This document shows positions 1 through 57,560 of a stretch of 64,000 nt of DNA, piece by piece. Location: positions 1 through 64,000 of the forward strand of contig JAABQB010000004.1 in NCBI GenBank assembly GCA_011391695.1. The letters run 5' to 3'. A model generated the notes under the pieces. The model did not search any database. It saw nothing but the letters and a program-made list of their open reading frames with translations, and had not been told where the DNA came from. A program made the translations under genes and the position numbers. The DNA is from Desulfobacteraceae bacterium. Lineage in GTDB: Bacteria; Desulfobacterota; Desulfobacteria; Desulfobacterales; RPRI01. Each line of letters begins with the position of its first letter. Position 1 is the first letter of the stretch.

Positions 1-722
1 CATCGGCAGAAAAAAAAGGGGGCAAATATGTATTAAACGGAAACAAGATGTTTATCACAAACGGCCCCATTGCAGACGTTGCTGTTGTGTATGCCAAAAC
101 CCAGACCGAACTTCAGCACGCAGGTATTTCCGCTTTTATAGTTGAAAAAGGGACAAAAGGATTTTCAGCTGGCCCTCCCCTTATAAAGATGGGGGTGAGA
201 ACATCCCACACTTCTGAACTCATTTTCCAGAATTGCGAAATCCCTGCAGAAAATCTTCTCGGAAAGGAAGGGGACGGTTTTTTGATGGCAATGCAGACGG
301 TCGAATGGGACCGCAGCGCGCTCCTTGCACCATTTGTAGGGTCTGCTACATATCTTCTTAAAAAATGCGCCCAGTATGCCAAAGGTCGCGTTCAGTTCGG
401 GCGGCCGATCGCCCAGTTCCAGGCAATAAAACATAAACTTGCGGACATTAGGATATTCGGAGAAGCAGCCCGCTCGCTTGTTTACAGGATCGCCTGGTGC
501 AAGGATCAGGGCCGGCCCTTAAATCATCTTGAAGCGGCGATTGCCAAGCTTTATGTCGGAGACTGGAGCATGGCCCCGACATTCGACGCGGTGCTTATAC
601 ACGGCGGTTACGGCTATTGCCACGAATATGATGTTGAGCGAATTTTCCGTGACAGCAGGCTTGCTCCCATAGGCGGTGGAACTTCAGATATCCAGAAAAT
701 GATTATATCCAAATTGATATGA
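1..722 (+). CDS. acyl-CoA dehydrogenase, 5'-truncated by window edge
   Basis: The frame is open from position 3, so the gene begins outside the window and only about 240 C-terminal residues are seen. The middle and C-terminal acyl-CoA dehydrogenase domains are present: a VLNGNKMFITNGP beta-domain signature, the FAD-binding stretch RVQFGRPIAQFQ, and a C-terminal IGGGTSDIQ motif. Gly replaces the catalytic Glu of the common YEGT motif. A VEWDRSALL segment could supply the base from the isovaleryl-CoA dehydrogenase position instead, which is an inference. It would oxidise an acyl-CoA at alpha-beta and pass electrons to ETF. A second, more divergent family member follows, and the two may form one enzyme. 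Confidence 0.93.
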   Translation, partial: SAEKKGGKYVLNGNKMFITNGPIADVAVVYAKTQTELQHAGISAFIVEKGTKGFSAGPPLIKMGVRTSHTSELIFQNCEIPAENLLGKEGDGFLMAMQTVEWDRSALLAPFVGSATYLLKKCAQYAKGRVQFGRPIAQFQAIKHKLADIRIFGEAARSLVYRIAWCKDQGRPLNHLEAAIAKLYVGDWSMAPTFDAVLIHGGYGYCHEYDVERIFRDSRLAPIGGGTSDIQKMIISKLI

Positions 723-730
723 AGAACTAA

Positions 731-829
731 TCAGGTTGAAAGACTGAAGGCTGAAGATTGAAGGTTGATAGACTGAAGACTGAAGGTTGAAAGTTTTTTA
801 AGATTATTTATGGCCTTCAGCCTTCAGCC
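731..829. repeat. intergenic palindrome with tandem-repeat arms (GAAGGCT type)
   Basis: Degenerate tandem units of about 7 bases (CTGAAGG, CTGAAGA, TTGAAGG) run from 731 to 792. The 13-base segment at 744-756 has an exact inverted copy at 815-827, so the transcript could form a long hairpin between the two acyl-CoA dehydrogenase genes. Confidence 0.8.
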
Positions 830-863
830 TAAACACCTGAATAACTATATTGCAGGAGCATAT

Positions 864-1994
864 ATGAATTTCGACTTTACACAGCAGGACAAAAAGTTAT
901 TTAAAGATATAAATGATATAATGACCGGACTCGCCGGGGAAAGAACTCTTGAAGAGAAAGATTCTCTTTCTGCCGAATTTCTGGTCAGGGAGGCTTTGGA
1001 ACGTCTTGCAAATTCCTTTTATTTAAAGCTCGGAATTGTTAAGGATGAAGATATTCCGGGTTTATGCGCCATGATGGGTGCGATGGAAATTGTATCATCC
1101 TTTTCTCCGTCCCTTTTTCTTTCGGTTGAAATGAGCACGAGGCTTTTCGGAAGAATAATATGCACATTTGGAAATGAAGAGCAGGAGAAAAAGTGGCTTT
1201 CGCCGGTTCTTCGCGGTAAAAAGCTCGGAGCTGTTGCCCTTTCGGAAAAAACCATGAACATAGATAATGATCCGATGGCTACAACCGGAGTCAGGGAAAA
1301 CGGCTTTATCAAAATATCCGGGGCAAAGAATTTCGTAATAAACGGGCCGATAGCCGATTTTACGGCTGTTGCCGGAATCATTGAAAACAAGCCCGCCATT
1401 TTTATCGTCGAAAAGGGACTTAAAGGATTAATACCGGGAAAACGTCTTGAAACAATCGGGTTGGATGGCGCAGTCATTTCAGGATTGATCCTTGATAACT
1501 GCCAGGTAAATGAAGACCAGGTTATAGGCCCGTTTGAGGACAGATCCTTATTCAGCACTCTTAAGATCTGGGAAAACCAGATAATCATAGGATCATCTCT
1601 CGGAATGATGAAATCATCATTTGAATCGGCAAGGGCATATGCAAAAGCCCATAAAACAGGCGGAAAACCTGTTATTGCCTACCAGGAAGTAGGGTTCAAG
1701 CTCGCTGAAATGCTGACCCTTTTCCAGACCTCCCAGCTTTTTGCTTACAGGGCCGTGTGTGCGGCAGAAGGGAAAAACAGGGACGCTGAGGTTTTGACTT
1801 ATTGCGCCAAAGTATTTTGCACCGAAGCTGCGGAAAAGGTTTCAGGATGGGCACTCCAGATACTTTCAGGCGAAGGATATATTTCAGGAAATCCTGCGGA
1901 AAGGGCTTTCAGATGCGCAAAATACAACCAGATAGCCGGAACTTCCACTGAAATATCAAGGGTAAAAATCGGAGATGCGGCAATAGGAGCTTGA
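864..1994 (+). CDS. acyl-CoA dehydrogenase-like protein, divergent subunit
   Basis: This 376-residue protein has acyl-CoA dehydrogenase fold features throughout but degraded motifs. The start at 864 has AGGAG at 854-858; upstream in-frame codons lie inside a repeat. Aligned to its upstream neighbour, the FAD-binding RVQFGRP motif reads HKTGGKP, so the conserved Arg and Phe are missing. The C-terminal catalytic motif reads IAGTSTEI with no Glu. A Glu is present in IWENQIII at the alternative catalytic position. The paired arrangement recalls the alpha2-beta2 dehydrogenases of steroid degradation, in which one subunit is non-catalytic. A non-catalytic partner role is inference. Confidence 0.85.
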   Translation: MNFDFTQQDKKLFKDINDIMTGLAGERTLEEKDSLSAEFLVREALERLANSFYLKLGIVKDEDIPGLCAMMGAMEIVSSFSPSLFLSVEMSTRLFGRIICTFGNEEQEKKWLSPVLRGKKLGAVALSEKTMNIDNDPMATTGVRENGFIKISGAKNFVINGPIADFTAVAGIIENKPAIFIVEKGLKGLIPGKRLETIGLDGAVISGLILDNCQVNEDQVIGPFEDRSLFSTLKIWENQIIIGSSLGMMKSSFESARAYAKAHKTGGKPVIAYQEVGFKLAEMLTLFQTSQLFAYRAVCAAEGKNRDAEVLTYCAKVFCTEAAEKVSGWALQILSGEGYISGNPAERAFRCAKYNQIAGTSTEISRVKIGDAAIGA

Positions 1995-2022
1995 TGCCTG
2001 TATTTTATTTGTGGAGATAAAA

Positions 2023-2694
2023 ATGAAAAAAAACAAAACACCAGAATCTGCCGAAAACAACTCTATATCCAAAACAGCTTTAAGAAGGCAGCGGGAGCGT
2101 GAACACAGGTACGAGAGTATTTTATCGGCTGCCGAATTACTTTTTGCCCGCGAAGGATACCTCCAGGCCAGCATGGAAAGAATCGCGGATTCTGCTGAAG
2201 TCTCTGTCGGGACACTTTATTTCTATTTCAAAAACAAGGAAGATCTTCTTGTGCATCTCCTGGATAAAATAAGCTTCGAATTAAGAGAGTTGCTTGGCTC
2301 GGAATTCATCAAAGCGGATTTTTCCCTTGATGGAATAAAGAGAGCCGGGCATGTTTTTTTCGAAAAATTCTGCCTTAAGTATCCGGATAAGCTCGCAATT
2401 CTTTTTAAAGAATCGATGGGAAGAAGCAATCTTGTTGAAGAGCACCGCAGGCAAATTTTTGACAAACTAATAGCTGATGTTCAGGAGGCGCTTGTGAGGT
2501 TGAGCGACAACCGGAGCTTAAATTACCAGAGCGTTCTTTCTGCGGAAATAATGGCTGTGAGCATACTCGGTATGTACGAGAGAATCGCTTATCATTTTCT
2601 AATATGGCAGGACCGTTCAAAAGAGATGAAAACAATCAGCAATGATACTGTTGCCTTCATCCTTGGCGGAATAAACAACCTTTCCGGGCAGTAA
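2023..2694 (+). CDS. TetR-family transcriptional regulator
   Basis: This 223-residue protein has an N-terminal TetR helix-turn-helix at about residues 25-70. The pattern runs from ILSAAELLFAREGY through ERIADSAEVSVGTLYFYF to the usual NKEDLL. The C-terminal half is a poorly conserved ligand-binding domain. The ATG at 2023 has GGAG at 2013-2016 with suitable spacing; a GTG at 2011 is in frame but overlaps that ribosome binding site. It lies between acyl-CoA dehydrogenase and thiolase-fold genes, so an acyl-CoA-responsive repressor of this cluster, in the manner of FadR or PsrA, is likely. The ligand is not deducible. Confidence 0.93.
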   Translation: MKKNKTPESAENNSISKTALRRQREREHRYESILSAAELLFAREGYLQASMERIADSAEVSVGTLYFYFKNKEDLLVHLLDKISFELRELLGSEFIKADFSLDGIKRAGHVFFEKFCLKYPDKLAILFKESMGRSNLVEEHRRQIFDKLIADVQEALVRLSDNRSLNYQSVLSAEIMAVSILGMYERIAYHFLIWQDRSKEMKTISNDTVAFILGGINNLSGQ

Positions 2695-2720: not shown

Positions 2721-2803
2721 TCACACGGAGACACAAAGCCACAAAGAAAGACATTAGGAAAACATCCAGGTTTTTATTTGTGGTATCCGTAATCTTTGTG
2801 TGA
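2721..2803. repeat. intergenic palindrome (CACAAAG type)
   Basis: The left arm TCACACGGAGACACAAAG and the right arm ending CTTTGTGTGA form an imperfect inverted repeat over about 80 bases. Similar elements lie at 10716-10823, 31363-31505 and 54922-54954. Confidence 0.7.
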
Positions 2804-2846
2804 GAACGACATATTACAATTTCATCAGCAAGGTATAAATAAATTT

Positions 2847-3398
2847 ATGCTTTTAAAAGGCGCATTGCATGTTCATACAACCTGTTCCGACGGAAGTCTG
2901 TCGGTTTCGGAAGTGGCAAATGTCTATGAAAGCCTCGGATTCGACTTTATTGCCTTAACCGATCATGATTATCTTTTACGACAGGGATGCTATGATGATG
3001 TAAGCAGTTTAACAACAAAACTCATGATATTTACGGGAGTTGAATTGACAGTTTTTGAAAAGGGGTACGTTCACATAAACCGGATAAGCGGCGACAAGGA
3101 GGTCCTTCATATTTTCAACCATCCTGCGGATCTTGACCTGCCTGTTTCAAAGGTTATTGAACGTATAACTTTAGTCGCAAAGCGTTTCCCAATCGATGCG
3201 ATTGAAATAACTTCAAAGGGCTTTAAGACTCCTGAATTTGATATACCCCGGATTCCGTATTCAAAAGTTGCTTCAGATGATTCTCATACGAGATCAGGAT
3301 GCGGCAGGGCATGGGTAGAGATGGATTGCAGGAGGAATAAGGACAGCATCATAAGGGCAATCAAACTGGGAAAGTTCTGGAATTGTTATGTCGGTTAA
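2847..3398 (+). CDS. PHP-domain metal-dependent phosphoesterase-like protein
   Basis: This protein of about 183 residues has the PHP metal-binding motifs in order: HVHTTCSDGS near the N-terminus, ALTDHDY, FNHPAD in the middle and a late ASDDSH. These are the ligands for a trinuclear metal site used for phosphoester hydrolysis. It matches the short stand-alone PHP proteins rather than the DNA polymerase or histidinol phosphatase forms. The start at 2847 (MLLKGALHVHTT) is chosen because upstream codons fall in a repeat; its ribosome binding site is weak. The substrate is unknown, and its place in an acyl-CoA cluster gives no clear clue. Confidence 0.85.
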   Translation: MLLKGALHVHTTCSDGSLSVSEVANVYESLGFDFIALTDHDYLLRQGCYDDVSSLTTKLMIFTGVELTVFEKGYVHINRISGDKEVLHIFNHPADLDLPVSKVIERITLVAKRFPIDAIEITSKGFKTPEFDIPRIPYSKVASDDSHTRSGCGRAWVEMDCRRNKDSIIRAIKLGKFWNCYVG

Positions 3399-3652: not shown

Positions 3653-3709
3653 GTCTTTAAATAAATCGGGCAAAAGGGGTTGTTACGCAAAGGTCGAAAA
3701 GGAGCATTT

Positions 3710-4858
3710 ATGGGAAACAGAGTAGCGATATGCGCCGTAGCGCAAACCACATACGAGCGGGACAAATGGCAACACCGGTTTCAGGGAATGGCGCTGGAGG
3801 TCCTTGAATCTCTGCTTAAACAGACAGGCCTCGGTTTTTCAGAAAAAAACGGCATCGGCATGTCCATAAGCGTTTCAGACGATATTTTCGACGCCCGTAC
3901 AATTTCTGACAACGCGATGACGGATGTTCTCGGAGCCCATTTACGATGTGAGGAGAAAGTTGCCCAGGAAGGAGCCCAGGCTGTTTACTACGGACTTGCG
4001 GCAATAATGTCGGGACACACAGATCTCGTCTTGATAATCGGGCATTGCAAGGAATCACAGGCAAAAAGCCGGAACATGGTAACTCACCTCGCTTTTGATC
4101 CCTTTTATACCCGCCCCGTGGGAATGGACTTTTGCGTTGCCGCCGGACTCCAGGCGCAGGCCTATGCCGAAAAATCAGGAATATTAGACGAACATCTTGC
4201 TGATGTTGTCGTTCGGGCACGCTGCAATGCTGCAAACAATCCTTTCACTCCTGAAATAAAGCCGGTGTCAAAAGAAGAGGTACTGAAGTCACCTATGCTT
4301 GCTGACCCGATCCGCCAGCTTCATGCCTATCCGGTTTCAGACGGTGCAGTCGGGATGGTACTTGCTTCTGAAGAAAGGGCGCGGGAAATTACGAAAAATC
4401 CTGTCTGGATTAAAGGCGTTGGAAATTGCATGGACAGGTTCTTTTTGGGAGACAGGGATCTTGCCTCAAATTTTGCCCTGAAAAAGGCGGCTCAGCGCGC
4501 TTATGACAGGGCCGGTATAAAAAATCCGCGTTCAGCATTCGACGTAATAGAAATATCCGACCAGTATGCGTACCAGAACCCGATGTGGATCGAAGGACTC
4601 GGCATCTGTGATGAAGGCAAAGGAGCGAAATGGCTTGAATCCGGCGGACCGGATAAATTCAAAGTAAATCCTTCAGGCGGAATGCTTGCCGGAAATCCTC
4701 TTATACTCGGTGGACTGGTTCGTTCGGCAGAGGCAGCTTTGCAACTGACAGGGCAGGCGGGAGAAAGACAGGTTAAAGATGCAAAAACCGCTCTTGCACA
4801 CGGTGTCATGGGTCCGGCAGGGCAGTTCCATTCCGTTATAATACTTGAACGTGACTAG
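3710..4858 (+). CDS. SCP-x/Ltp2-like thiolase-fold protein lacking the nucleophilic Cys
   Basis: This 382-residue protein has the thiolase fold. The start ATG at 3710 has AAAAGGAG just upstream, so an in-frame TTG at 3680 was rejected. Where thiolases carry the CASG nucleophile, this protein reads VAQEGAQAV (residues 84-92) with no Cys. The usual GHP histidine motif near the C-terminus is GNP, with Asn at residue 329. The same changes are known in Ltp2-type retro-aldolases of steroid side-chain degradation, which work with a DUF35 partner. Two DUF35 domains are encoded downstream. A carbon-carbon lyase role acting on a beta-hydroxyacyl-CoA is inferred; a scaffold subunit is also possible. Confidence 0.85.
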   Translation: MGNRVAICAVAQTTYERDKWQHRFQGMALEVLESLLKQTGLGFSEKNGIGMSISVSDDIFDARTISDNAMTDVLGAHLRCEEKVAQEGAQAVYYGLAAIMSGHTDLVLIIGHCKESQAKSRNMVTHLAFDPFYTRPVGMDFCVAAGLQAQAYAEKSGILDEHLADVVVRARCNAANNPFTPEIKPVSKEEVLKSPMLADPIRQLHAYPVSDGAVGMVLASEERAREITKNPVWIKGVGNCMDRFFLGDRDLASNFALKKAAQRAYDRAGIKNPRSAFDVIEISDQYAYQNPMWIEGLGICDEGKGAKWLESGGPDKFKVNPSGGMLAGNPLILGGLVRSAEAALQLTGQAGERQVKDAKTALAHGVMGPAGQFHSVIILERD

Positions 4859-4869
4859 GGAGAAAGGCA

Positions 4870-6051
4870 ATGAAAAAAAACAGAAATGTCGGAATCATAG
4901 GAGTCGGGCAGACAGTACATTCCAGTCACCGTGAAGACGTAAATCAGCCTGAAATGATACATGAAGCGGTTTCCGCTGCCTTGAAGCAGGCAGGGATCAC
5001 AATAGATGAAGTAGACTGCATTGTTCATGGAAACATGGAATTGTTCGAAATGGTTCACCAGCCGGACTTATGGCACACTCTCGGAACAGGAGCATATGGA
5101 AAGGAGACGCTGAGGGTAACAACAGGAGGAACAACGGGCGCAACTTTAGTATGCGCTGCCGACCACCTTGTGGCATCAGGTCTTCATGACATAGTGCTGG
5201 CTGTCGGTTTTGAAAAACTGCAGGAAGGGCATACAACAGGCGGAATAACCAACATGGCAGATCCGCTCTGGGGCCGCCAGCTTCAGACCGGCGCCTTAAC
5301 CGGAATGACAGCCGCGGACCTGATAGAGGAATTCGGCGAAGAAAGAGCCAAAAAAGCTTCCATGAAATATCGGATTATCATGGACAAGCATGCCATGAAA
5401 AACGATAAAGCTCACAGAAGGCTCGGGCTTGAATTCGACCAGGCCGATGATCTCGCAAAAAACTCTCCGGCTCTTGTAGGTGAATTAAGAATGATACACA
5501 TGTGCTCCCAGAGCGACGGAGCCTGCGCAATGATTTTTGCGTCCGAAGAAAAAGCGAAGAAACTCTGCAGGCAGCCGGCCTGGATCAAAGATCACGTAAC
5601 AGTCCACAGGGAAGAATTGTTTTGCATTTTCGGGGGCGTCCCGTACCTGACGACCCATAAATATGCGGCACAGAAACTTTATGAAAGAAATGGAATCAAA
5701 GATCCACGCAGGGAAATCGACATGTTTGAGATGTACGACCCTTCAAGCTGGTGGGGACTTGACTGGCTGAGAGAATTTCTTCTGCTCGAAAATGACGAGC
5801 ATATTAAGATGGTTGAAAATGATGAAATTACAATGGATGGCTCTTTCCCGGTCAACCCGTCAGGCGGTGTCATAGCTTCAAATCCGATCGGCGCAACAGC
5901 CATGATAAGGGTTGCGGAAGCGGCGCTCCAGATAATGGGTGAGGCCGGAGAACATCAGGTGAAAAAACCCGTAAACCAGGCAATGGCTTCAGGCTTCGGG
6001 GGAACAATGTGGACTGTTCTTTTTTTATTAACAAAAGAAGTTCCGTGGTAA
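4870..6051 (+). CDS. second SCP-x/Ltp2-like thiolase-fold protein lacking the nucleophilic Cys
   Basis: This 393-residue paralogue starts 11 bases after the previous gene with a good GGGAGAAAGG ribosome binding site. The nucleophile region reads RVTTGGTTGATL (residues 82-93), placing Gly where Cys is expected. The C-terminal motif GGVIASNPIGAT has Asn338 in place of the GHP histidine. A FEMYDPSSWW segment near residue 285 contains a Tyr of the kind implicated in aldolase catalysis in Ltp2. The close spacing suggests a heteromeric complex with the upstream protein and the DUF35 domains encoded downstream. Thiolytic activity looks unlikely from the residues present. Confidence 0.87.
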   Translation: MKKNRNVGIIGVGQTVHSSHREDVNQPEMIHEAVSAALKQAGITIDEVDCIVHGNMELFEMVHQPDLWHTLGTGAYGKETLRVTTGGTTGATLVCAADHLVASGLHDIVLAVGFEKLQEGHTTGGITNMADPLWGRQLQTGALTGMTAADLIEEFGEERAKKASMKYRIIMDKHAMKNDKAHRRLGLEFDQADDLAKNSPALVGELRMIHMCSQSDGACAMIFASEEKAKKLCRQPAWIKDHVTVHREELFCIFGGVPYLTTHKYAAQKLYERNGIKDPRREIDMFEMYDPSSWWGLDWLREFLLLENDEHIKMVENDEITMDGSFPVNPSGGVIASNPIGATAMIRVAEAALQIMGEAGEHQVKKPVNQAMASGFGGTMWTVLFLLTKEVPW

Positions 6052-8616: not shown

Positions 8617-9516
8617 ATGCAATCGGTTAAGGATGACTGCTTTATTGTTGAAGGAAAACTGGCCCTGCCGTACCAGTATTTTGCAGGCCGGACCGGAAGT
8701 CGTTTTCTTATCTCCTTAAGGGATAAAAAAATTATGGGTTTAAAATGCGACAAGTGCAACAGGGTTTTCGTGCCACCCAGGACTCTTTGCGAACAATGCT
8801 TTTCAAACATATCCGAAAACTGGGTCGAGCTGAAAAATAAGGGGATTGTCACCGGCTTTACCATCGTAAGATATGAAGAACCTTATCAGACTGCAAAGCC
8901 GCCCTATATTCTCGCCCTTATAAAAATTAGCGGTTCTGATACGCCGATAGCTCACATAGTAAAAGGTATCCCCTTAAGCAAAATGCGCACGGGCTTGAAA
9001 GTTAAAGCCGTGTTTGCGAAAAAAAGCACTTCCACCATAATGGATATCGATCATTTCAGGTCTGATGAAAAACCGAAGTTTGAACTGGGCTTCACATACG
9101 ATGAGCTTGAAGTCGGCATGTCCGCCTCTTTTACAAAAACGATTTCAGAAACAGATGTATATCTTTTTGCAGGAATTTCAGGCGATTTCAACCCGATGCA
9201 TTTAAACGAGGAGTTTGCGAAAGCAACCCCTTTCGGCACAAGGATCGCCCACGGCGCCCTTCCACAGAGCCTTATAGCTCCTGTTCTTGGCATGAAACTC
9301 CCAGGGCTCGGAACAGTCGCCCTCGAAATTACATGCCGTTTTAAAGCCCCGACATATTTTGGTGATACCATAACCGCAACAGGTGAGGTTTCTGAAAAGA
9401 TTGAAAAGAAGCGCTGGGTCAGGATGGCGCTTACATGGACAAACCAGAAAGGCGAAATCGTGGCGGAAGGCTCTGCTCTTGTTATGCCTCCTGCTCCGAT
9501 GCCGCAGGAAATGTGA
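8617..9516 (+). CDS. DUF35-MaoC fusion, enoyl-CoA hydratase-like
   Basis: This 299-residue protein joins an N-terminal DUF35 domain to a C-terminal MaoC hot-dog domain (about 165-295). The zinc ribbon has Cys44, Cys47, Cys58 and Cys61. The MaoC domain keeps the hydratase motif GDFNPMH with Asp190 and His195 as the catalytic pair. The same domain order occurs in ChsH2, which forms a hydratase with ChsH1 and docks the Ltp2 aldolase. By analogy it would hydrate an enoyl-CoA and present the product to the thiolase-fold proteins. ChsH2 itself has a degenerate MaoC site, whereas this one looks intact, so it may not need a partner. Confidence 0.9.
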   Translation: MQSVKDDCFIVEGKLALPYQYFAGRTGSRFLISLRDKKIMGLKCDKCNRVFVPPRTLCEQCFSNISENWVELKNKGIVTGFTIVRYEEPYQTAKPPYILALIKISGSDTPIAHIVKGIPLSKMRTGLKVKAVFAKKSTSTIMDIDHFRSDEKPKFELGFTYDELEVGMSASFTKTISETDVYLFAGISGDFNPMHLNEEFAKATPFGTRIAHGALPQSLIAPVLGMKLPGLGTVALEITCRFKAPTYFGDTITATGEVSEKIEKKRWVRMALTWTNQKGEIVAEGSALVMPPAPMPQEM

Positions 9517-9524
9517 GGTAAGCT

Positions 9525-10688
9525 ATGGCATTAGAATTTGCTGCAAAGGCTTCCTGCCAGGAATACTTCGGGAAAGCCCATGAAATGGTCCGCCGCTCCG
9601 TAAAGGAATTCGTCGGCAAGGAAATTATCCCTTTTATAGAGGAATGGGAAGAGGAATGCGAATTTCCGCGCTCCCTTTACAAAAAAGCTGCGGAAGTCGG
9701 AATACTTGGAACAGGGTATCCCGAGGAACTGGGAGGAACACCCGGAGACATATTTTTCCAGATAGCCGTCTGGGAAGAACTTATGCGTTCCGGTTCAGGA
9801 GGACTTGTTGCCGGGCTCGGCTCCCTTAATATTGCCATACCTCCCATAGTGAGATCCGGGACCGAAGAGCAGAAAAAGAAATTTGTAAAACCCGTCCTTG
9901 CAGGAGAGAAAATCGCCGCCCTTGCCATCACTGAACCCGAGGGAGGCTCCGATGTCGCAAATATCAGGACAACTGCGGTAAAGGATGGCAATAATTATAT
10001 TGTTAACGGGAGCAAGACTTTTATAACAAGCGGATGCAGGGCCGACCAGATAACATGCGCCGTAAGAACCGGTGAAAACGGGGCTCACGGAATAAGTCTT
10101 CTTATTATTGAATCGAAAACTCCCGGCTATTCGGTCTCAAACAAGCTGAAAAAAACAGGATGGTGGGCTTCCGACACCGCGCAGATATTTTTTGATGACT
10201 GCCGGGTCCCGGTTGAAAATCTTATCGGTAAAGAAAACGAGGGCTTTTACGGCATTATGGAAAATTTTCAGACTGAAAGGCTCCAGCTTTCCATAATGGC
10301 CAATATAACATCACAGTTGGCCCTTGAAGAATCCTTAAAATATGCTAAAAAGAGAGAAGCCTTCGGCCGTCCCATAAAAGGTTTTCAGGTAATACGCCAC
10401 AAGCTTGTCGAAATGGCTACCCTCGTTGAAGTGAGCCGGGAATTCACATACCGCGTAGCCGCTAAAATCGATTCCGGGGCAAACCAGATAAAAGAAATTT
10501 CAATGGCCAAGAATTTTGCCACAAGCGTCAGCGACAGAGTCACATATGAGGCCGTACAGATATTCGGGGGCTACGGATTCATGCGTGGTTATCTAGTTGA
10601 AAGGCTCTTCCGCGATAACAGGATACTCTCTATAGGCGGAGGAACAACAGAAATAATGAAGGAGATCATCTCCAAATTCATAATATAA
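9525..10688 (+). CDS. acyl-CoA dehydrogenase
   Basis: This full-length enzyme of 387 residues follows the MaoC gene by 8 bases, with GAGGTAAG as ribosome binding site. It carries the LAITEPEGGSD loop, the SKTFITSG strand, the FAD-contacting KREAFGRPIKGFQ and a QIFGGYGFMRGY motif. The C-terminal motif is IGGGTTEIM, lacking the Glu of the YEGT type. TERLQLS supplies a Glu at the alternative catalytic position, as in isovaleryl-CoA dehydrogenase. It probably introduces the double bond that the MaoC enzyme hydrates. Branched-chain or bulky substrates are suggested only by the context. Confidence 0.95.
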   Translation: MALEFAAKASCQEYFGKAHEMVRRSVKEFVGKEIIPFIEEWEEECEFPRSLYKKAAEVGILGTGYPEELGGTPGDIFFQIAVWEELMRSGSGGLVAGLGSLNIAIPPIVRSGTEEQKKKFVKPVLAGEKIAALAITEPEGGSDVANIRTTAVKDGNNYIVNGSKTFITSGCRADQITCAVRTGENGAHGISLLIIESKTPGYSVSNKLKKTGWWASDTAQIFFDDCRVPVENLIGKENEGFYGIMENFQTERLQLSIMANITSQLALEESLKYAKKREAFGRPIKGFQVIRHKLVEMATLVEVSREFTYRVAAKIDSGANQIKEISMAKNFATSVSDRVTYEAVQIFGGYGFMRGYLVERLFRDNRILSIGGGTTEIMKEIISKFII

Positions 10689-22918: not shown

Positions 22919-24646
22919 TCAATCACTAAAGAGGCCGAGGAAATTAACCATATTAATTATTCCTCCCTCTATCTTTACGTCACCTTTTGCCAGTGCCACG
23001 GCAGGGTTGGCAAGCCTGGTCGCAATCTCTTTCCATATATGGGAATTAACCGTCACTGTTATGTCCGCTTTTTCCGGAAAACGTGGCTCGACTATCGCGA
23101 CTCCACAACGGACGTGTACAGTAAATGCTTCTTTTGTATCCGGAAAATAAAAGCCGGCAACTTTATCGATGTCGACACTTTTTTCAGGATTGAGTTTTAC
23201 ACTCATGCCCGCAAAGATAGCCGCAAGCGGGATTCTGTGGGCCAGATCCGCATCGATTTTAGCCTGTGTCAGTTTTAACCTTCCCTCGGCCTCATGTGCC
23301 TGCGAGAAGTAATAATTCCGGGCATTTGCATTGCCCTGCTGTAATGCAAGCGCACGAAGGGACAAAGCCTTTAATTCAAGTGCTTCGCTCATATCCGGAG
23401 TTATCTGAAGCAGTTTGTCCGTTAGCTCTAAAACCCACTGGTGGTCTTGCTCTGCACTGGCTTTTCTTGCATGCTCAAGGAGCTCTTTATTGCCTCCCGC
23501 AAGCTTTGCAAACCTTTCTGCACGCTCTTTTAATGTAAGTGGATTTAGATCTGTTGAATTCCCGCTGAACCATCCGAGGTACCCGTTATAGATATTTCTA
23601 ACCGACCAGGCGACAGTTCCATAATATTCGCGAAGATATGGTTTTTCCGCCAGATGCCGTGGCAATTTCACTGTTTCCGCAAGTTCATCCGGAGTAAGCC
23701 CTCTGTTTATGCCCCTTATTGTCTGGTCGTGTACAAATTGTATAGCATCCCTGTAGTCAGTAAGTATTGTGTCTATTGTGTTTAATCCTGTGATTGGTCT
23801 CGAATGGCAAGGTACGAGATACTCCGCCTTCAGCAGTAGCATTTTATCAAGGCTCCGAACCCACGCAAGCACATCCCTGTAGCTTGTTCCGCGTATTGTG
23901 TAGAGATTCGGAAAGGACTTGTAATAATCATCCGCTGCAATGAGAACCTTTTTATCCGGCATCCAAACTACAATCTGGTCATCTGTTTCGCCCGGCGCAT
24001 GAATGAGCTCAAGATTTATGCCTGCTATGCTGACTTTCAGGGTTTCACCTGAAAAAGTCTTATTCGGCCTTACGTATGACATTGTTGTTTTATCATTAAA
24101 CTTCAGAAAAGGTCCGATTCCACAGTTTTCAAGTTCGTCGTTTTTCAAAAAAGTGCCGAACATGCGCATAGCCCGTTTATAAGTTATTTCCTGCGTAATT
24201 GCAGTGACTCGATCAAGTTCATCTAATGTTTTCTTATGGGAATAAACATCGATGTTTTTATTTTCTGTAAAAACCCCGGCTCCAAAGACATGATCGGCAT
24301 GATAATGGGTATAAATAATTGCTTTTACAGGTTTTAATGTTATATTATCAAACGCTTTCTTTACGGGTATGGCCGCTTCAACACTCTCCATTACATCAAC
24401 TATAACGACACCGTCCTGCCCTTCAAGCAGAATTGAGTTGGCAAGCCCGTAGCCGATTGCCACATACACGCCATCCGTTACTTTAATGATTTCCTGCTTA
24501 AATTCGGCCGTATGCCCTGTAAGCTCCTTGTTATCAACTTTGGCGGCAGTAACTGTTTTTTTCCACGAACAACCGGACACTGTTAATACACAAGCTGCAA
24601 CATATATTATAAACAACGCTGTTTTTCTTCCCATGTTTGTTTTCAT
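22919..24646 (-). CDS. alkyl-sulfatase (SdsA1-like), predicted lipoprotein
   Basis: This protein of about 575 residues has a metallo-beta-lactamase domain with THYHADH (His114, His116, Asp118, His119) and a DDYYKSFPNLY segment typical of SdsA-type enzymes. A helical dimerisation domain follows (about 350-450), then a C-terminal SCP2-like domain, the known SdsA architecture. Family enzymes hydrolyse alkyl sulfate esters to alcohol and sulfate. The N-terminus has a hydrophobic stretch ending VSGC, a lipobox with Cys26, so it is probably an outer-membrane or periplasmic lipoprotein. The start at 24646 avoids overlap with the upstream gene. Substrates could include other sulfate esters. Confidence 0.9.
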   Translation of the reverse strand: MKTNMGRKTALFIIYVAACVLTVSGCSWKKTVTAAKVDNKELTGHTAEFKQEIIKVTDGVYVAIGYGLANSILLEGQDGVVIVDVMESVEAAIPVKKAFDNITLKPVKAIIYTHYHADHVFGAGVFTENKNIDVYSHKKTLDELDRVTAITQEITYKRAMRMFGTFLKNDELENCGIGPFLKFNDKTTMSYVRPNKTFSGETLKVSIAGINLELIHAPGETDDQIVVWMPDKKVLIAADDYYKSFPNLYTIRGTSYRDVLAWVRSLDKMLLLKAEYLVPCHSRPITGLNTIDTILTDYRDAIQFVHDQTIRGINRGLTPDELAETVKLPRHLAEKPYLREYYGTVAWSVRNIYNGYLGWFSGNSTDLNPLTLKERAERFAKLAGGNKELLEHARKASAEQDHQWVLELTDKLLQITPDMSEALELKALSLRALALQQGNANARNYYFSQAHEAEGRLKLTQAKIDADLAHRIPLAAIFAGMSVKLNPEKSVDIDKVAGFYFPDTKEAFTVHVRCGVAIVEPRFPEKADITVTVNSHIWKEIATRLANPAVALAKGDVKIEGGIINMVNFLGLFSD

Positions 24647-24660
24647 TTGAGGGTCCCCGT

Positions 24661-25500
24661 TCAATTTGAACCGCAATAATTTTCCGCAATTTCAATATAA
24701 TGCAATGCTTCCTCAATCCGCCCTCTTTTCCGACAGCCGTCTGAATAAACACGGCATTTTTCTTTTAAAACCTTTATCGCAAGTTTTTTCTGATTTTCAG
24801 ATAAGAGGCTTTTTTCAATTAGCTTTATAATTGACTGAATTCTATATTTATCAAGGGAATGCATTCCGGATAGCTGGTCTTCATGTCCGCCCCTTTTTAC
24901 AGTCAGAGGCGTATTAATAAGGTATATCGGATGCCGGCAGTTTACCCGGAGCCACATGTCATAATCTTCACAGGCAGGAAGCTTTTCATCGAAAAGACCG
25001 ACAATATCGAAAAGGTTCCTTTTCACCATAACCGCAGACGGGCTTACCATGCAAAGTTCAAGTGATTTTTCAAAAAAGAATTCCGATATCTTTTTATGCC
25101 TTTTCCCGGGATTAACCCTCTTTCCGTTTTTCAGCCATATTTCTTCTGTCTGACATATAAGTGCGCCTGGATTATTTTCAAAAAATGCAAGCTGGATTGA
25201 TAATTTTCCCGGAAGCCACAGGTCGTCCGAATCAAGAAAAGCAATAAAATTTCCGGATGACGAGGTAATGCCTTTATTCCTTGCGGAGCTAACACCTTTA
25301 TTTTTCTGTCTTATAACCTTGATTCTGTTCCCGTAAGAATACAAGATGTCCGAAGTATTATCTTCAGAGCCGTCATCTACCACGATCAGTTCAAAATTGT
25401 AAAATTCCTGGGAAAGGACTGAATCCACTGCCTCTTTTAGTATCCATCCCCTGTTATATGAGGGAATAATCACGCTGACTGTCGGTTTCTTTGATCTCAT
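24661..25500 (-). CDS. family 2 glycosyltransferase
   Basis: This protein of about 279 residues has the GT-A fold beginning VSVIIPSYNRGWILKEAVDS, then the ELIVVDDGSEDNT nucleotide-binding motif and FLDSDDLW with the metal-binding DxD. A GLFDEKLPACEDYDMWLR segment contains the ED acid-base pair. The C-terminus is helical. The MRSKKP start is chosen because upstream residues are encoded by an intergenic repeat. The gene ends 14 bases before the alkyl-sulfatase start and may be cotranscribed. Donor and acceptor sugars are unknown. Confidence 0.92.
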   Translation of the reverse strand: MRSKKPTVSVIIPSYNRGWILKEAVDSVLSQEFYNFELIVVDDGSEDNTSDILYSYGNRIKVIRQKNKGVSSARNKGITSSSGNFIAFLDSDDLWLPGKLSIQLAFFENNPGALICQTEEIWLKNGKRVNPGKRHKKISEFFFEKSLELCMVSPSAVMVKRNLFDIVGLFDEKLPACEDYDMWLRVNCRHPIYLINTPLTVKRGGHEDQLSGMHSLDKYRIQSIIKLIEKSLLSENQKKLAIKVLKEKCRVYSDGCRKRGRIEEALHYIEIAENYCGSN

Positions 25501-51331: not shown

Positions 51332-53065
51332 TTATCCTTTTATAGATCTTGGAGTAAGCATCTGGTGCTGCGGGCAGATTGATATTGGATTCTGGTAAGA
51401 GGCGCCCGTGAAGGCAACGAGATATTTTCTTAAATCCGATAAATTGACCACTTCATCTACTAGACCATGCTTTGCGCAATAAGCAGGTCTGGAATAATCA
51501 TAATATTCTTGAGCCAGCTTGTTCATGCTGTCGATTATCGGTTCAAGAGGCTTCCCGGCTGCTTTTTCCTTTACCAGCCTGCGTGAATAAGATGCTGCAG
51601 CGGCCGTTTCACCGTGCATAACGTAAATTTCTGTTGTGGCTAACCCTACTGTAAATGCATTGTGCCTGTTTGCGGTCGGACCTCCCATTATGTAATGGGC
51701 TGCCGCAGAGCCTTTTCTTAAGACAACCAGAAGCTGAGGCACTTCCGTCTGCTGAATGGAATAAATGAGAGACTGGCCAAGGCCGAGGAGTTCGGCTTTT
51801 TCCGCAATATCGCCGACATCAATTCCGGAAGTATCCTGGAACCATATGATGGGGATTCTGTCACGCCCGCATAATGTGACGAATTCATTCATCTTGATAA
51901 GACCCTGCCTGTAAAGTTTCCCGCCGATTCCCGGGTAAGTCGCATATTCGGGATAATTTTCCTTGAGAAGTCCCTGGTTATTTCCGATACACCCGACCAC
52001 AAACCCATCCAGTTTGCACAAACCCGTATAAACCTCGGGGCCGTAATCAGGGCGGTACTCCATGTGTTCACTCCCATCAACCAGGCGGGACAGAATATCT
52101 TTGAAATCATAAGTCCTCTTCTGATTGAAAGGAAGCAGATAATAAAGCTCATCGGTGGAAAATTTGGGAGTTTTCGGCTCTGCCACCCTGAAAAATTTAG
52201 GGTTATATGCAGGCATATCCTTCATATAATCTTTAAGGCCGTCAAGAACGCCCGTCTCTTCTTCATAAACATATCTGAAAAAGCCAGTTGAATCGTAATG
52301 AACCTCAACGGACCCCGGCGGCTTGGCCTTGAACTGCTTTGCAGAGGAAATAAGCATTTCGGCGCCTTCCAGATCAAAGTGCCCTTTGGGAGACATTCCG
52401 CTTAAAATGCCGCCGCCGCCGACCGCGATATTACAGTTTTTATGGGCAAACAAAACAGTCGGACTTATTGCCTGGTAGCCTCCGCCTGCCGGGTTGGTGC
52501 CGTATAAACCGGCTAAAATCGGAATTCCCATGATTTCAAGTTCTGCATGCCTGAAAAATGTTGTTCCAGATCCACGGCGGCTACCGTAAAACTTCTCCTG
52601 CTCGGGTAATTTCACTCCGCTGCAGTTTACAAGCCAGATAAGAGGGATATGAAGCCTCTTGGCAAGATCGGTGACCCGCAGCACATTTTCAGCCTGTCCG
52701 GGAAGCCAGGCCCCTGCCATGACCTTGTTGTCAAACCCGATGATAACAGCCCATTTGCCGGATATTTTACCAAGACCATCAATAACATTGGTGGTTCCTT
52801 CAGGATTATTCGTGGGGTTGAAAATGGTGTGCAAAGGGCACCATGTTCCAGGATCAACCAGATATGCGAGCCTCTGCCAGACGGTCATCTCGCCTCTTTC
52901 ATTTATTTTTTCGGCCGGCATCCCGGCATTTTTTACCTTTTCAACCTCGGCCTTCACCTGGTTTTCAACATCTTTTATTTGTGTAACATTATCCTTGTTG
53001 CTTTTTTTCTGTCCCTCTGAAAGCACTCTGCCGAAATCAGGCATTTTTTCAAAATAAGGTTTCAT
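51332..53065 (-). CDS. gcdA: glutaconyl-CoA decarboxylase alpha subunit (carboxyltransferase)
   Basis: This 577-residue carboxyltransferase matches GcdA of Acidaminococcus-type glutaconyl-CoA decarboxylase closely over its length. It shows the GKWAVIIGFDNK, GAWLPGQAENVLR, YGTNPAGGGYQAISPTV and GIGGKLYRQGLIKMNEFVTL segments and a C-terminal PISICPQHQMLTPR. It transfers carboxyl from glutaconyl-CoA to a biotin carrier. The membrane and biotin subunits are not in the window. The upstream genes encode a glutaryl-CoA dehydrogenase-like enzyme, consistent with a two-step route from glutaryl-CoA to crotonyl-CoA that can drive sodium export. Confidence 0.94.
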   Translation of the reverse strand: MKPYFEKMPDFGRVLSEGQKKSNKDNVTQIKDVENQVKAEVEKVKNAGMPAEKINERGEMTVWQRLAYLVDPGTWCPLHTIFNPTNNPEGTTNVIDGLGKISGKWAVIIGFDNKVMAGAWLPGQAENVLRVTDLAKRLHIPLIWLVNCSGVKLPEQEKFYGSRRGSGTTFFRHAELEIMGIPILAGLYGTNPAGGGYQAISPTVLFAHKNCNIAVGGGGILSGMSPKGHFDLEGAEMLISSAKQFKAKPPGSVEVHYDSTGFFRYVYEEETGVLDGLKDYMKDMPAYNPKFFRVAEPKTPKFSTDELYYLLPFNQKRTYDFKDILSRLVDGSEHMEYRPDYGPEVYTGLCKLDGFVVGCIGNNQGLLKENYPEYATYPGIGGKLYRQGLIKMNEFVTLCGRDRIPIIWFQDTSGIDVGDIAEKAELLGLGQSLIYSIQQTEVPQLLVVLRKGSAAAHYIMGGPTANRHNAFTVGLATTEIYVMHGETAAAASYSRRLVKEKAAGKPLEPIIDSMNKLAQEYYDYSRPAYCAKHGLVDEVVNLSDLRKYLVAFTGASYQNPISICPQHQMLTPRSIKG

Positions 53066-53186
53066 TGTCTAACTCCCGGTAACATCTGTCTGGTTGATAT
53101 TGTAAGTGCAACAATTGCACGGTTCATTAATTTATAAAGTATTATTCTTCAACAACAATTATGTTTGACTTAATCGTTGGTTATTC

Positions 53187-53588
53187 TCAAGCAATCGGCC
53201 ACAATCCTTTTTCTTCAAGAACCCCTTTTAATACTTTTAAAGCTGAATTTGTTGCAGGAACACCCCCGTATATGCAGGTCTGAAATATCACTTCTGCTAT
53301 TTCTTCCGGTTTGCAGCCGACATTCAACGCAGCATGTATGTGCAGTTTCAATTCGTCAAGGCGCGATAAAACAGTCAGAGCCGCAACTGTAATAAGCTGC
53401 CTTGTAGTATGAGGAATTTTTTCCCTTGCATACATCTGACCGGTGATAAAAAGAGAAAGATCGTTTGCAAGGTTCCTGTCAAAGGATTTCCAGAGTTCGT
53501 AAGGCCTTTCGCCTGTTACATCCTTAAAATAAAGAGCGGCTGTCTTTTTTGTTTTTTCAACTATGTCGTCTTTCAAATTATGCTCCAC
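53187..53588 (-). CDS. carboxymuconolactone decarboxylase-family protein
   Basis: This 133-residue protein has the CMD fold with TTRQLITVAALTVLSRLDEL and KLHIHAALNVGCKPEEIAEV. There is a single Cys where AhpD-type members carry a CxxC, so peroxidase activity is unlikely. In this gene set it lies between the dehydrogenase and gcdA, but its reaction is unknown. The frame is clean with an in-frame ATG at 53588. Confidence 0.87.
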   Translation of the reverse strand: MEHNLKDDIVEKTKKTAALYFKDVTGERPYELWKSFDRNLANDLSLFITGQMYAREKIPHTTRQLITVAALTVLSRLDELKLHIHAALNVGCKPEEIAEVIFQTCIYGGVPATNSALKVLKGVLEEKGLWPIA

Positions 53589-53593
53589 ATAAG

Positions 53594-53722
53594 ATCAGGT
53601 TTCTGGTTTCTGGTTTGAAGTCTCTGGTTTTTTTATGCCCCCGCTTTTCCGGTCACTCGAACCCTTGAACCCTGCCGTAGGCCCGCCAATAGGTGTGGCG
53701 GGAACCCTCGAACCCTTGACTT
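53594..53722. repeat. intergenic repeats (CTGGTTTC and GGATTCAA types)
   Basis: GGTTTCTGGTTTCTGGTTTG at 53599-53618 is followed by TCGAACCCTTGAACCC at 53658-53673, a CCCGCC/GGCGGG hairpin (53682-53702) and a second CTCGAACCCTTGAC at 53706-53719. It combines half-arms of two repeat families. Confidence 0.7.
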
Positions 53723-54886
53723 TTATCTGTTTGCCTTTCTTATTCCAAGCTGATCCTGGGCTATTATCCATTTACATATATTTGACGACCCTTCCACCAT
53801 GGTATATGTCGGGGTATCCCTGTAATAGCGGGCAACGGGATATTCTGTTGAGTAACCATATGCGCCAAGGATACGCATTGCGTAGTTGGCACACTTTGTC
53901 ACAGTTTCACCCGCAAAATATTTGGCATGAGCAACATCAAGACCATTGTTAAGATTCCCCTCGTCTTTTACCCAGGCTGCTTTATAAACGAGAAGGCGTG
54001 CAGCCTCTATTTCAGCCGACATCTGTGCAATCATGTCCTGGTTCATCTGGAATTCCCGGATAAGTTTTCCAAACTGTTTGCGGGTATTGCAGTATTTGAC
54101 CGCGGCATCAAGACAGGCCTGTGCAAGCCCGACGGCACCGGCAGCAGCAGAAAGTCTGGTCTGGTTCAGCGAGCTGAAAACTATTTTGGCGCCATCACCC
54201 GGTTTGCCGAGAATATTTTCCTTGGGGACCCTTGTTTCTGTCAGGAATATTTCGCCGGTCGGAGATGAGTGTGAGCCCATTTTGTCGAGACCTGACGTTT
54301 TGACGCCATTGAAATTTTTCAGTTCAACAACAAAAGCGGAAAGCCCCTTTGATCCGGCAGCGCGGTCGGTGTAAGCATAATAAATAACAAGATCGGCATA
54401 ATTGGCATTTGAGATCCATGTTTTCGAACCATTTAACAACCAGTGATCTCCCTTATCTTCAGCTGTTGAAACCATTGACATAACATCCGATCCGGCATCA
54501 GGTTCGGTAATGGCAAAACCCCCGACATAATCGGCAGAGACAAGCTTCGGGATATATTTCTTTTTTGTTTCTTCACTTCCGTATTTGAAGATGGTGTATG
54601 CACAACCGAGGGTTTGCATATTGATCTGGACTCTTAAAGAGCTTGAAGCTCTTGCGATTTCTTCAGTGACTATCATTGCCGCCAGCCAGCCCATGTCGTC
54701 ACCTCCGTATTCTTCAGGAATAACCGTCCCGAAAAAACCGAGCTCTCCCATTGGTTTCAAGGCTTCCTTGTAGGGAAAGTAATGGTTTTTATCCCATTCA
54801 TCGGCGTTAGGGGCAATTTTTTTTGCTGCAAACTCGCGGACGGCTTTCCGCAACATCTCAAGTTCCTTGGATAGGGCAAAATGCAT
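53723..54886 (-). CDS. acyl-CoA dehydrogenase, glutaryl-CoA dehydrogenase-like
   Basis: This complete 387-residue enzyme has GGFAITEPDAGSD, SKTWISNANYADL, NTRKQFGKLIREFQ and MRILGAYGYSTEY. The C-terminal motif is TMVEGSSNICKW, with the catalytic Glu present but Val where decarboxylating glutaryl-CoA dehydrogenases have Tyr. A Tyr-to-Val/Ala change at this point has been linked to non-decarboxylating enzymes in sulfate reducers. AGGAGG precedes the ATG. The neighbouring gcdA fits conversion of glutaryl-CoA to glutaconyl-CoA. An alicyclic acyl-CoA dehydrogenase (cyclohexane- or cyclohexene-carboxyl-CoA) is the main alternative. Confidence 0.9.
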   Translation of the reverse strand: MHFALSKELEMLRKAVREFAAKKIAPNADEWDKNHYFPYKEALKPMGELGFFGTVIPEEYGGDDMGWLAAMIVTEEIARASSSLRVQINMQTLGCAYTIFKYGSEETKKKYIPKLVSADYVGGFAITEPDAGSDVMSMVSTAEDKGDHWLLNGSKTWISNANYADLVIYYAYTDRAAGSKGLSAFVVELKNFNGVKTSGLDKMGSHSSPTGEIFLTETRVPKENILGKPGDGAKIVFSSLNQTRLSAAAGAVGLAQACLDAAVKYCNTRKQFGKLIREFQMNQDMIAQMSAEIEAARLLVYKAAWVKDEGNLNNGLDVAHAKYFAGETVTKCANYAMRILGAYGYSTEYPVARYYRDTPTYTMVEGSSNICKWIIAQDQLGIRKANR

Positions 54887-56332: not shown

Positions 56333-57443
56333 TGCTGATTGCCTCCATAATCTGACGCGGTGTTATAAGCCTGCCGTCCATCCGGCCGAAAAATTTGACT
56401 TTTTTATCCGGCAGAATGCGCTCTATTTCACAAACGTACTGGCCCATATTCATCTCAAAAACGAAGACATTTTTCGCGTTTTTGGCCTTATCCCGGATGA
56501 GGTTTTCAGGAACCGGCCACAGAGTTTTCAGTATAAGAAGAGATAACGGTTTCCCTGCTTTTTTCTGTTCGTCGATAACCACTTTTGCGGCACGACCCGT
56601 TACTCCATAGGTTATAATAAGGGTCTCGGCATTCTCTTCGATGAAGCTTGCATGGAAGCTGAAAGAGTCTATTGCCGATTCGAGTTTGTTTTTCAGCCTG
56701 TTCTGGAACCGGGAAATAATACCGGGATCGGTTGTAATATATCCATCCGCCCCGTGAGTGGATGAGGTCTGCCGGACTAATGTTTTGCCGCCGATAGGAA
56801 GAAATTCCGGAATCATGCTGCCTTCTTTTACCGCAAAGGGGAGAAAGTTTTCTTCTTTTGATTGAATGCGGTCGATTATCCGGGGCTTTTCGACAGCATC
56901 AAGATCTATGCTCTCTTTTGTCATGGCTATTTCTTTGTTGGATGCCAGAAAAACAGGGCATCTGAACTCTTCGGCAAGATTAAAAGCATGCATTGTCAAA
57001 ACAAAGCAGTCTTTAATATCAACAGGAGCCAGAACAATTACAGGCAATCCCCCGCTGTTTCCCCAGCGCATGAAGTTAATATCACCGTCGGCCCCGCGCG
57101 TTGCGGAACCGGTAGATGGGCCGAGTCTCTGGACATTTACTATTACAAGCGGAATTTCACTTCCAATGGCAAATGAAATCTGTTCGCTGTAAAGGCTTAT
57201 GCCGGGACCCGATGTCGCGGTCATTGATTTCAAACCGGCCATTGAAGCGCCTAAACAGTATCCCATGGAAGCAATTTCATCTTCTCCCTGAAGGCAGATA
57301 CCGCCGGCAGGAGGCATAATTCTGAGCAGGGTGTTAAAAATAGTTGTAGCCGGAGTAATGGGATATCCGGCAAAAAATCTGCATCCTGAAGTCATTGCTC
57401 CCCATGCAACCGCCTCATTTCCTTCCAATAAAGATAAAGACAT
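56325..57443 (-). CDS. 2-oxoacid:ferredoxin oxidoreductase alpha subunit
   Basis: This 372-residue alpha subunit has LLEGNEAVAWGAM at the start, FFAGYPITPATTIF, GEDEIASMGYCLGASMAG and MTATSGPGISLYSEQ. It pairs with the downstream beta-gamma protein to form the active site. The ATG at 57443 follows GGAG by five bases; an upstream in-frame ATG at 57473 is less likely. The PSTGSATRGADGDI segment is typical of KorA-type enzymes. Substrate cannot be fixed by eye. Confidence 0.92.
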   Translation of the reverse strand: MSLSLLEGNEAVAWGAMTSGCRFFAGYPITPATTIFNTLLRIMPPAGGICLQGEDEIASMGYCLGASMAGLKSMTATSGPGISLYSEQISFAIGSEIPLVIVNVQRLGPSTGSATRGADGDINFMRWGNSGGLPVIVLAPVDIKDCFVLTMHAFNLAEEFRCPVFLASNKEIAMTKESIDLDAVEKPRIIDRIQSKEENFLPFAVKEGSMIPEFLPIGGKTLVRQTSSTHGADGYITTDPGIISRFQNRLKNKLESAIDSFSFHASFIEENAETLIITYGVTGRAAKVVIDEQKKAGKPLSLLILKTLWPVPENLIRDKAKNAKNVFVFEMNMGQYVCEIERILPDKKVKFFGRMDGRLITPRQIMEAISNE

Positions 57444-57560
57444 GGTTTCTCCTGAAAATTGATTGAGTCTCATACGGCATTGTTTTTGCCCCAGCAGGCA
57501 TGAATAGGCATATACAAAAATCGGGGAAAAATAGAAAGTAAAAAAGATTTATTCAGATGG

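Follow-up and report, generated by a model that had tools for sequence, protein, structure and literature searches.

This locus raises the question of whether a hydratase that carries a complete MaoC active site and is fused to a DUF35 docking domain could work without a partner subunit while bound to an aldolase. The gene, hereafter DUF35M-MaoC, lies in a 64,000-nucleotide stretch of a Desulfobacteraceae bacterium contig (the window; JAABQB010000004.1, positions 1 to 64,000). A precedent is Shy of Comamonas testosteroni, described in 2024, in which an N-terminal DUF35 domain precedes a C-terminal MaoC domain with its dyad, and whose homodimer binds the aldolase Sal through DUF35 (PMC11321319). 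The abstract of the Sal paper calls the Shy DUF35 domain C-terminal, yet the Shy zinc residues are given as 31-47 (PMC12329534), and the domain is placed at the N-terminus in PMC10398937 as well. ChsH2 carries DUF35 at its C-terminus and is described as lacking the dyad (PMC11321319). With the publication of Shy, the central idea of a self-sufficient docked hydratase is already known. As far as we have seen, the novelty lies in a MaoC domain of PhaJ-like type, in a heteromeric setting that resembles an aldolase, and in the exchange of MaoC and a beta-keto acid cleavage enzyme (BKACE) on one docking domain.

A contig scan with peptide patterns of thioB, a thiolase-like gene upstream of DUF35M-MaoC (Table 1), returned 218 relatives. 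Of these, the best 80 were retained; they fall in 75 loci with 103 thioB instances, and a few of the 75 loci duplicate records from other genomes that were compared. Near relatives dominate the best 80 of 218, with 88 of the 103 instances at 60% identity or more, so that the invariance counts given below are inflated. The 75 loci come mostly from Desulfobacterales, Syntrophaceae/Smithella and Spirochaetota, and further from Desulfohalobiaceae, Schekmanbacteria and single other taxa. Their usual gene order, among these best 80 of 218, is PHP-thioA-thioB-[ligase]-[SCP2]n-DUF35L-DUF35M. In the same set, thioA is directly upstream of thioB in 92 of the 93 instances with sufficient flanking sequence, and 52 of 53 testable instances have two or more DUF35 ORFs downstream, a count of any such ORF within 4.6 kb that may take in one from a following module. 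The ligase-SCP2-DUF35 triple fusion recurs in relatives, where one to three stretches that look like SCP2 copies separate the ligase from DUF35.

Table 1. Genes around DUF35M-MaoC, in window coordinates
Feature	Position	Strand	Remarks
Acyl-CoA dehydrogenase, C-terminal part	48..722	+	By comparison with relatives; seems cut at base 1 of the contig (C61), which is the window start; the counterpart in G053 has 398 aa
Divergent acyl-CoA dehydrogenase-like protein	810..1994	+	28-65% identity outside the genus
TetR-family regulator	2011..2694	+	Best NCBIfam match FadR, 57.8 bits, under the cut-off of 200
PHP-domain protein	2796..3398	+	Usually directly upstream of thioA in relatives
thioA, thiolase-superfamily subunit lacking the nucleophilic Cys and, in most cases, the motif Tyr	3680..4858	+	Start possibly ~10 codons downstream, judged by relatives
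thioB, thiolase-superfamily subunit without nucleophilic Cys (Gly87)	4870..6051	+	Presumed catalytic subunit
Ligase-SCP2-DUF35L fusion, 782 aa	6251..8599	+	AMP-forming acyl-CoA ligase 8-491, SCP2 carrier 528-616, DUF35L zinc ribbon 662-691
DUF35M-MaoC	8617..9516	+	ATG ORF, 299 aa, 17 bases past the preceding ORF; zinc-ribbon/OB docking domain ~aa 20-150, short linker, PhaJ-like MaoC ~aa 157-295
Acyl-CoA dehydrogenase	9525..10688	+	Starts 8 bases past DUF35M-MaoC
Acyl-CoA dehydrogenase with Acyl-CoA_dh_C extension, 634 aa	10797..12701	+	

An earlier, sequence-only reading of the locus had proposed a DUF35-MaoC fusion with an intact hydratase site, and both the open reading frame and the site were confirmed. 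Three Pfam domains, zf-ChsH2 (35-63, 7.8e-8), OB_ChsH2_C (69-133, 3.6e-8) and MaoC (173-271, 2.4e-21), exceed their curated cut-offs and are therefore not chance matches; NCBIfam gave no equivalog above cut-off for this protein. The dyad Asp190/His195 sits in the D-x-N-P-x-H motif of GDFNPMH, where the alignment with Aeromonas PhaJ (1iq6) has no gaps, and both residues are unchanged in all 24 aligned fused proteins (the window and 23 loci from the best 80 of 218 matches). The zinc ligands C44, C47, C58 and C61, a C4 site with canonical spacing, are equally invariant in these proteins (24/24, same best 80 of 218). Residues 13-18 do not vary across the fused proteins aligned from the window and the best 80 of 218 matches even though residues 1-19 have a pLDDT below 50 in the AF2 monomer, as would be expected of a docking segment. 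Over the 23 loci (best 80 of 218 matches), which belong mostly to Desulfobacterales and in two cases to Desulfohalobiaceae, identity to the fusion is 48-91% for DUF35M and 75-97% for MaoC. A frameshift or assembly artefact as the source of the fusion was ruled out, since it recurs in many other assemblies, including two complete Desulfosarcina chromosomes (L053, L059); the D. widdelii orthologue spans L053:14539-15426.

The MaoC part resembles PhaJ, the (R)-specific enoyl-CoA hydratase, in its ungapped alignment, dyad, hot-dog fold and near-canonical central helix, and differs from it in being preceded by a DUF35 domain. The AF2 monomer, built from 26 sequences, has a mean pLDDT of 80.8 and a pTM of 0.48, the five models ranging in mean pLDDT from 80.8 to 68.4. 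Its central helix is modelled over residues 214-227 (14 residues) and is followed by 6 residues to the next strand, the block having a pLDDT of 75-83. By comparison, this helix has 16 residues in PhaJ, three fewer in PaaZ, and 9 in Shy and ChsH2 (PMC11321319). The top VIA-align matches of the model are PhaJ1 (Z 18.7 over 140 residues) and PhaJ (Z 18.4, 1.9 Å over 131); its DUF35 part matches 6ok1_B (Z 13.8) and 9myr_B (Z 13.4), DUF35 domains solved with aldolases. ShyMaoC (8vwr) is absent among the 50 matches listed, which excludes nothing, and by sequence the MaoC part scores 6.7e-29 against PhaJ1 vs 0.0036 against 8vwr. A hydratase function of DUF35M-MaoC is likely. Given the PhaJ-like fold and sequence and the near-canonical modelled helix, a steroid-sized cleft is unlikely.

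As for self-sufficiency, the complete dyad, the PhaJ-like monomer model and the absence of any other PF01575 match from the contig argue for it. Genome-wide there are four PF01575 matches, namely the fused gene, a 149-aa MaoC protein with its own dyad motif on contig C87, on C71 a HadAB-like protein of 295 aa that scores below the NCBIfam cut-off and has no dyad pattern, and on C60 a weak match. A profile run around the 75 loci (best 80 of 218) found 26 MaoC-like stretches, two of them unfused (L066, L073); these two score weaker and are separated from the fused gene by about 7 and 4 kb. A partner such as the MaoC-like protein of C71 could in principle pair in trans; nothing in the gene order suggests such a partner.

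The order of domains called ChsH2-like in that reading turned out to be the reverse. ChsH1-ChsH2 with Ltp2 (Mycobacterium, Thermomonospora) offers an analogy in that MaoC and DUF35 share one polypeptide that docks on a thiolase-like aldolase; a ChsH1H2-Ltp2-type system is also the subject of a separate Comamonas study (PMC12502768). Yet ChsH2 is arranged as MaoC-DUF35, is without the dyad and needs ChsH1, whereas here DUF35 is N-terminal, the dyad is complete and the contig holds no second PF01575 match. With the order reversed and the dyad present, the comparison with ChsH2 was dropped. The arrangement is that of Shy, for which hydration and aldol docking in one polypeptide are already on record with Sal; for our protein the combination is plausible.

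Might DUF35M-MaoC then be truly orthologous to Shy and act with a Sal-type aldolase as a hydratase of steroid (bile-acid) side chains? The two share the domain order, an own dyad and the lack of a partner MaoC gene nearby, thiolase-like neighbours without Cys are found at both, and an SCP2 domain is close by. The zinc site of Shy is C3H1, C-x3-H-x8-C-x2-C (PMC12329534), vs C4 here. The steroid cleft is remodelled in Shy, in contrast to the PhaJ-like MaoC of our protein, with its far weaker match to 8vwr, and the 9-residue helix and long loop with an auxiliary domain of Shy stand against the modelled 14-residue helix and 6-residue loop. Shy has one Sal partner with a YDCY motif, whereas here a thioA/thioB pair is present, thioB has YDPS (YDP, not YDC), and a second DUF35 is carried on the ligase-SCP2 protein. 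Membership in Shy was ruled out by the zinc site, the modelled central helix and the partner motif, and we regard orthology as very improbable.

Nor is the presumed aldol partner a single aldolase; it is a pair of thiolase-like proteins without Cys, thioA and thioB, with the second DUF35 on the upstream ligase-SCP2 protein. Residues were counted in 98 thioB rows (from the 103 instances plus the window) and 92 thioA rows, those under 360 aa having been dropped. Among the best 80 of 218 matches, the thioB nucleophile column holds Gly87 in 98/98 rows, and Tyr289, Pro291 and Asn338 are kept just as strictly (98/98). For thioA, the MAFFT alignment shows Gly or Ser in this column in 87 of the 92 rows and gaps in 5; the window residue is Gly98 in a register that is uncertain, pairwise alignment pointing to Ala95 instead, and columns 93, 94 and 95 hold Cys in 7, 1 and 1 of the 92 rows. 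With no Cys at the nucleophile column in the 98 thioB rows or in the 92 thioA rows, 5 of which are gapped there, a true thiolase as partner was ruled out.

Sal of C. testosteroni has Gly at the nucleophile position, a catalytic Tyr302 and an essential Cys304, and the corresponding Tyr of TcLtp2 is Tyr294 (PMC12329534). Aligned through the SCP2-thiolase, thioB Tyr289 takes the position of these Tyr residues and Pro291 that of CtSal Cys304 and the Ltp2 His. As Pro replaces Cys304/His, thioB lacks the known proton donor, and retro-aldol cleavage is a tentative assignment; a Tyr base of this kind is compatible with an aldolase and does not prove one. The structure model of thioB (mean pLDDT 79.9, pTM 0.87) is closest to thiolases with DUF35 partners (6esq_A, Z 45.0) and to the SCP2-thiolase (Z 44.0), ahead of Ltp2 (Z 37.9) and Sal (Z 37.2), a point against an aldolase role.

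The nearest NCBIfam families are PRK08313 (cut-off 514 bits), of which thioB at 276.9 and thioA at 228 bits fall far short, and PRK07937 (cut-off 419 bits), where thioA is below at 187.7. A Streptomyces clavuligerus plasmid encodes a homologous pair within PRK07937 and PRK08313, which we take to be actinobacterial Ltp4 and Ltp3. This pair is 24-35% identical to thioA/thioB and likewise without nucleophilic Cys, the Cys-less state having been compared with this pair only. One tandem DUF35-DUF35 protein precedes it, which fits one DUF35 per thiolase-like subunit. Our proteins thus resemble Ltp3-Ltp4 as a pair of adjacent thiolase-like subunits and differ in lying below the NCBIfam cut-offs. Ltp3-Ltp4 has been described as a heteromeric aldol-lyase of C24-branched sterol side chains, acting once the branch has been carboxylated and hydration has taken place (PMC6678751), and both proteins have been named aldol-lyases required for branched chains (PMC4761994, PMC6273163).

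DUF35M does not always carry a MaoC domain. Of the 103 thioB instances (best 80 of 218), 71 showed the DUF35M slot: 23 with a MaoC fusion, 22 with a BKACE fusion and 26 with neither. Four of these 26 run into a contig edge, and one, L083, is a DUF35M-BKACE with a broken frame. Many of the 32 instances in which no DUF35M was seen end at contig edges. DUF35M-BKACE takes the same slot as DUF35M-MaoC (for example, L101:4827-6254) in Syntrophaceae, Smithella and Spirochaetota. Pfam placed the BKACE domain of 5 of the 22 fusions in PF05853 (1.4e-90 to 3.9e-94), and the others were recognised by BLAST to one of these five; NCBIfam gave no equivalog over the cut-off for the four BKACEs scanned (best 282.3 bits vs 382). 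Separate BKACE genes with 67-73% identity stand near the module in L046, L066 and L073, which are MaoC-fused, and in unfused L097, and a weak one (29%) is found in L078; among MaoC-fused loci with at least 6.3 kb upstream, 3 of 16 have a separate BKACE. A CoA-transferase-like gene is present in 12 of the 22 BKACE-fused loci, with PF01144 in both loci scanned (L108, L088). The CoA-transferase-family pair (331 and 256 aa in L108) occurs in L084, L088, L108 and other BKACE-fused loci, in several of them between two thioA/thioB modules, and has no NCBIfam equivalog above cut-off.

Within the same bacterial order, each half also has near relatives without the fusion, DUF35M in G021 (68%) and MaoC in G024 (67-68%). 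These close unfused relatives suggest that DUF35M and MaoC may have been fused in an event separate from that in Shy. The MaoC-domain tree permits a single origin of the fusion, with a support of only 8, and the thioB tree requires four changes for the MaoC label and two for the BKACE label. Among plasmid records, 469 match DUF35M-MaoC and 5 cover at least 80% of the protein; on an Azospirillum plasmid, one of those records, thiolase-like, OB-fold and MaoC proteins are encoded by three separate neighbouring genes. Fusions of DUF35 to SCP2 and to hot-dog dehydratases, as well as tandem DUF35, were noted in 2010 (PMC2954200); the BKACE and AMP-ligase fusions found here are not named in that paper's passages on DUF35 fusions. 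We found no literature, among open-licence papers, on BKACE with DUF35 or an aldol-lyase, nor on DUF35 with DUF849.

How might these proteins act together? The nine operon products scanned with Pfam include no 3-hydroxyacyl-CoA dehydrogenase, no second hydratase and no Cys-bearing thiolase. An operon with a ligase, a carrier, dehydrogenases and a hydratase but without these enzymes follows the logic of Shy-Sal and ChsH-Ltp2, in which hydration precedes retro-aldol cleavage. We read DUF35M-MaoC as a docked, self-sufficient (R)-specific enoyl-CoA hydratase on a thioA-thioB aldol-lyase, a reading that we hold to be fairly probable as a whole and in which activity, homodimer, docking, retro-aldol cleavage and substrate class are all inferred. 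The ligase/SCP2 protein would activate and carry the substrate, which would then pass to an acyl-CoA dehydrogenase, to MaoC and to the aldol-lyase. MaoC, which would probably form a homodimer as in PhaJ, with both active sites complete, would convert enoyl-CoA to 3-hydroxyacyl-CoA. DUF35M, with its C4 zinc-ribbon/OB fold, would anchor this hydratase on the thioA-thioB complex; through DUF35L, the ligase and SCP2 carrier encoded upstream would be held there as well. Having no nucleophile for thiolysis, thioA-thioB would most likely cleave 3-hydroxyacyl-CoA by a retro-aldol reaction, as reported for the related Ltp3-Ltp4 pair of actinobacteria. A tertiary beta-carbon could thereby be passed without a 3-hydroxyacyl-CoA dehydrogenase or thiolase, the substrates presumably being beta-branched acyl-CoAs. 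For Shy-Sal, no significant channeling has been reported, so that tethering need not bring a kinetic benefit.

The fact that 48 of the 71 seen DUF35M slots (best 80 of 218) are without MaoC counts against a docked hydratase. It would suit a fusion that serves mere convenience of co-expression, with MaoC as a general beta-oxidation hydratase, DUF35M serving thioA/thioB, and the two reactions at different steps; so would the lone MaoC of G024, whose neighbourhood includes a canonical SCP2-thiolase with its Cys and a further DUF35 gene. That the fusion is kept over 23 loci of the best 80 of 218, at the identities given above, and that the scanned operon products offer no other hydratase make this explanation unlikely in our view. 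It is also conceivable that thioA-thioB is a condensing or acyl-transfer enzyme, biosynthetic and PhlABC-like or HMG-CoA-synthase-like, whose product MaoC dehydrates. MaoC reactions are reversible, the thioB fold resembles the thiolase-fold subunits of PhlABC and of the archaeal thiolase/HMG-CoA synthase (in these systems, as in BbsAB, DUF35 accompanies thiolase-fold enzymes), and the second module of the genome adjoins an HMG-CoA reductase gene. However, the solved condensing members of DUF35 complexes use a nucleophilic Cys, which neither thioA nor thioB has, and the neighbours look degradative, with a ligase, four acyl-CoA dehydrogenase-like genes and a TetR regulator; we consider a condensing role quite improbable.

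The aldol-lyase reading may be extended to the BKACE fusions. It is tempting to speculate that thioA-thioB with its two DUF35 slots forms a scaffold of plug-in type that serves an anaerobic way past beta-branches and substitutes for HMG-CoA lyase, although we regard this wider proposal as tentative and, taken as a whole, rather doubtful. One slot would hold SCP2, often with a ligase; the other would hold either MaoC, making 3-hydroxyacyl-CoA (Desulfobacterales), or BKACE, removing the product (Syntrophaceae, Spirochaetota). BKACE enzymes convert a beta-keto acid and acetyl-CoA to acyl-CoA and acetoacetate. If the substrate were a 3-hydroxy-3-alkylglutaryl-CoA, its beta-branch carboxylated as reported for C24-branched sterols, cleavage would release a free beta-keto acid, which BKACE and acetyl-CoA could turn into acyl-CoA and acetoacetate. 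In the Ltp3-Ltp4 route, thioesterification of the freed carboxylate is mandatory (PMC6678751); BKACE chemistry would meet this need and may thus link both fusion partners in one pathway. The operon in the window has no carboxylase among its genes, and a plain beta-methyl enoyl-CoA, which would yield a ketone, is just as conceivable a substrate. The only BKACE of this genome is encoded on contig C20, where it follows genes for a ligase, carboxyltransferase, biotin carboxylase, biotin carrier and enoyl-CoA hydratase and precedes those for an acyl-CoA dehydrogenase and TetR; with just 30% identity to the module BKACE, it makes the connection weaker in this genome.

Our results suggest that the self-sufficient DUF35-MaoC build is apparently not restricted to steroid degraders. 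It occurs here in an anaerobic operon with a core common to Thermodesulfobacteriota, Spirochaetota and others, and the hydratase there is PhaJ-like. The exchange of MaoC and BKACE on one docking domain is a clue to the role of the thiolase-like pair that sequence alone leaves open. If the aldol-lyase reading is true, the operon would provide a step by which branched lipids are cleaved at a C-C bond in anoxic sediments; should the scaffold proposal hold too, the module would be a functional substitute for HMG-CoA lyase in anaerobic isoprenoid or sterol side-chain breakdown.

Several neighbouring features were observed along the way. In the C20 run (L123, G000:C20, 2389-11783), the TetR gene is 42% identical to that of the window operon, and an HMG-CoA lyase gene was not noticed among the genes of the run. 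The window itself encodes another acyl-CoA carboxyltransferase and acyl-CoA dehydrogenase (51332-54886, strand -), adjoined by pyruvate:ferredoxin oxidoreductase-like genes (55040-57473), and an alkyl-sulfatase-like metallo-beta-lactamase with an SCP2-like C-terminal domain (22919-24676, strand -). The second thioA/thioB/DUF35 module of the genome (L038, G000:C50, 4431-11048) adjoins, besides the HMG-CoA reductase gene, those of a metallo-beta-lactamase and a 292-aa protein without Pfam match, relatives of which are also found at modules in L088, L102, L106-L108, L110 and L112.
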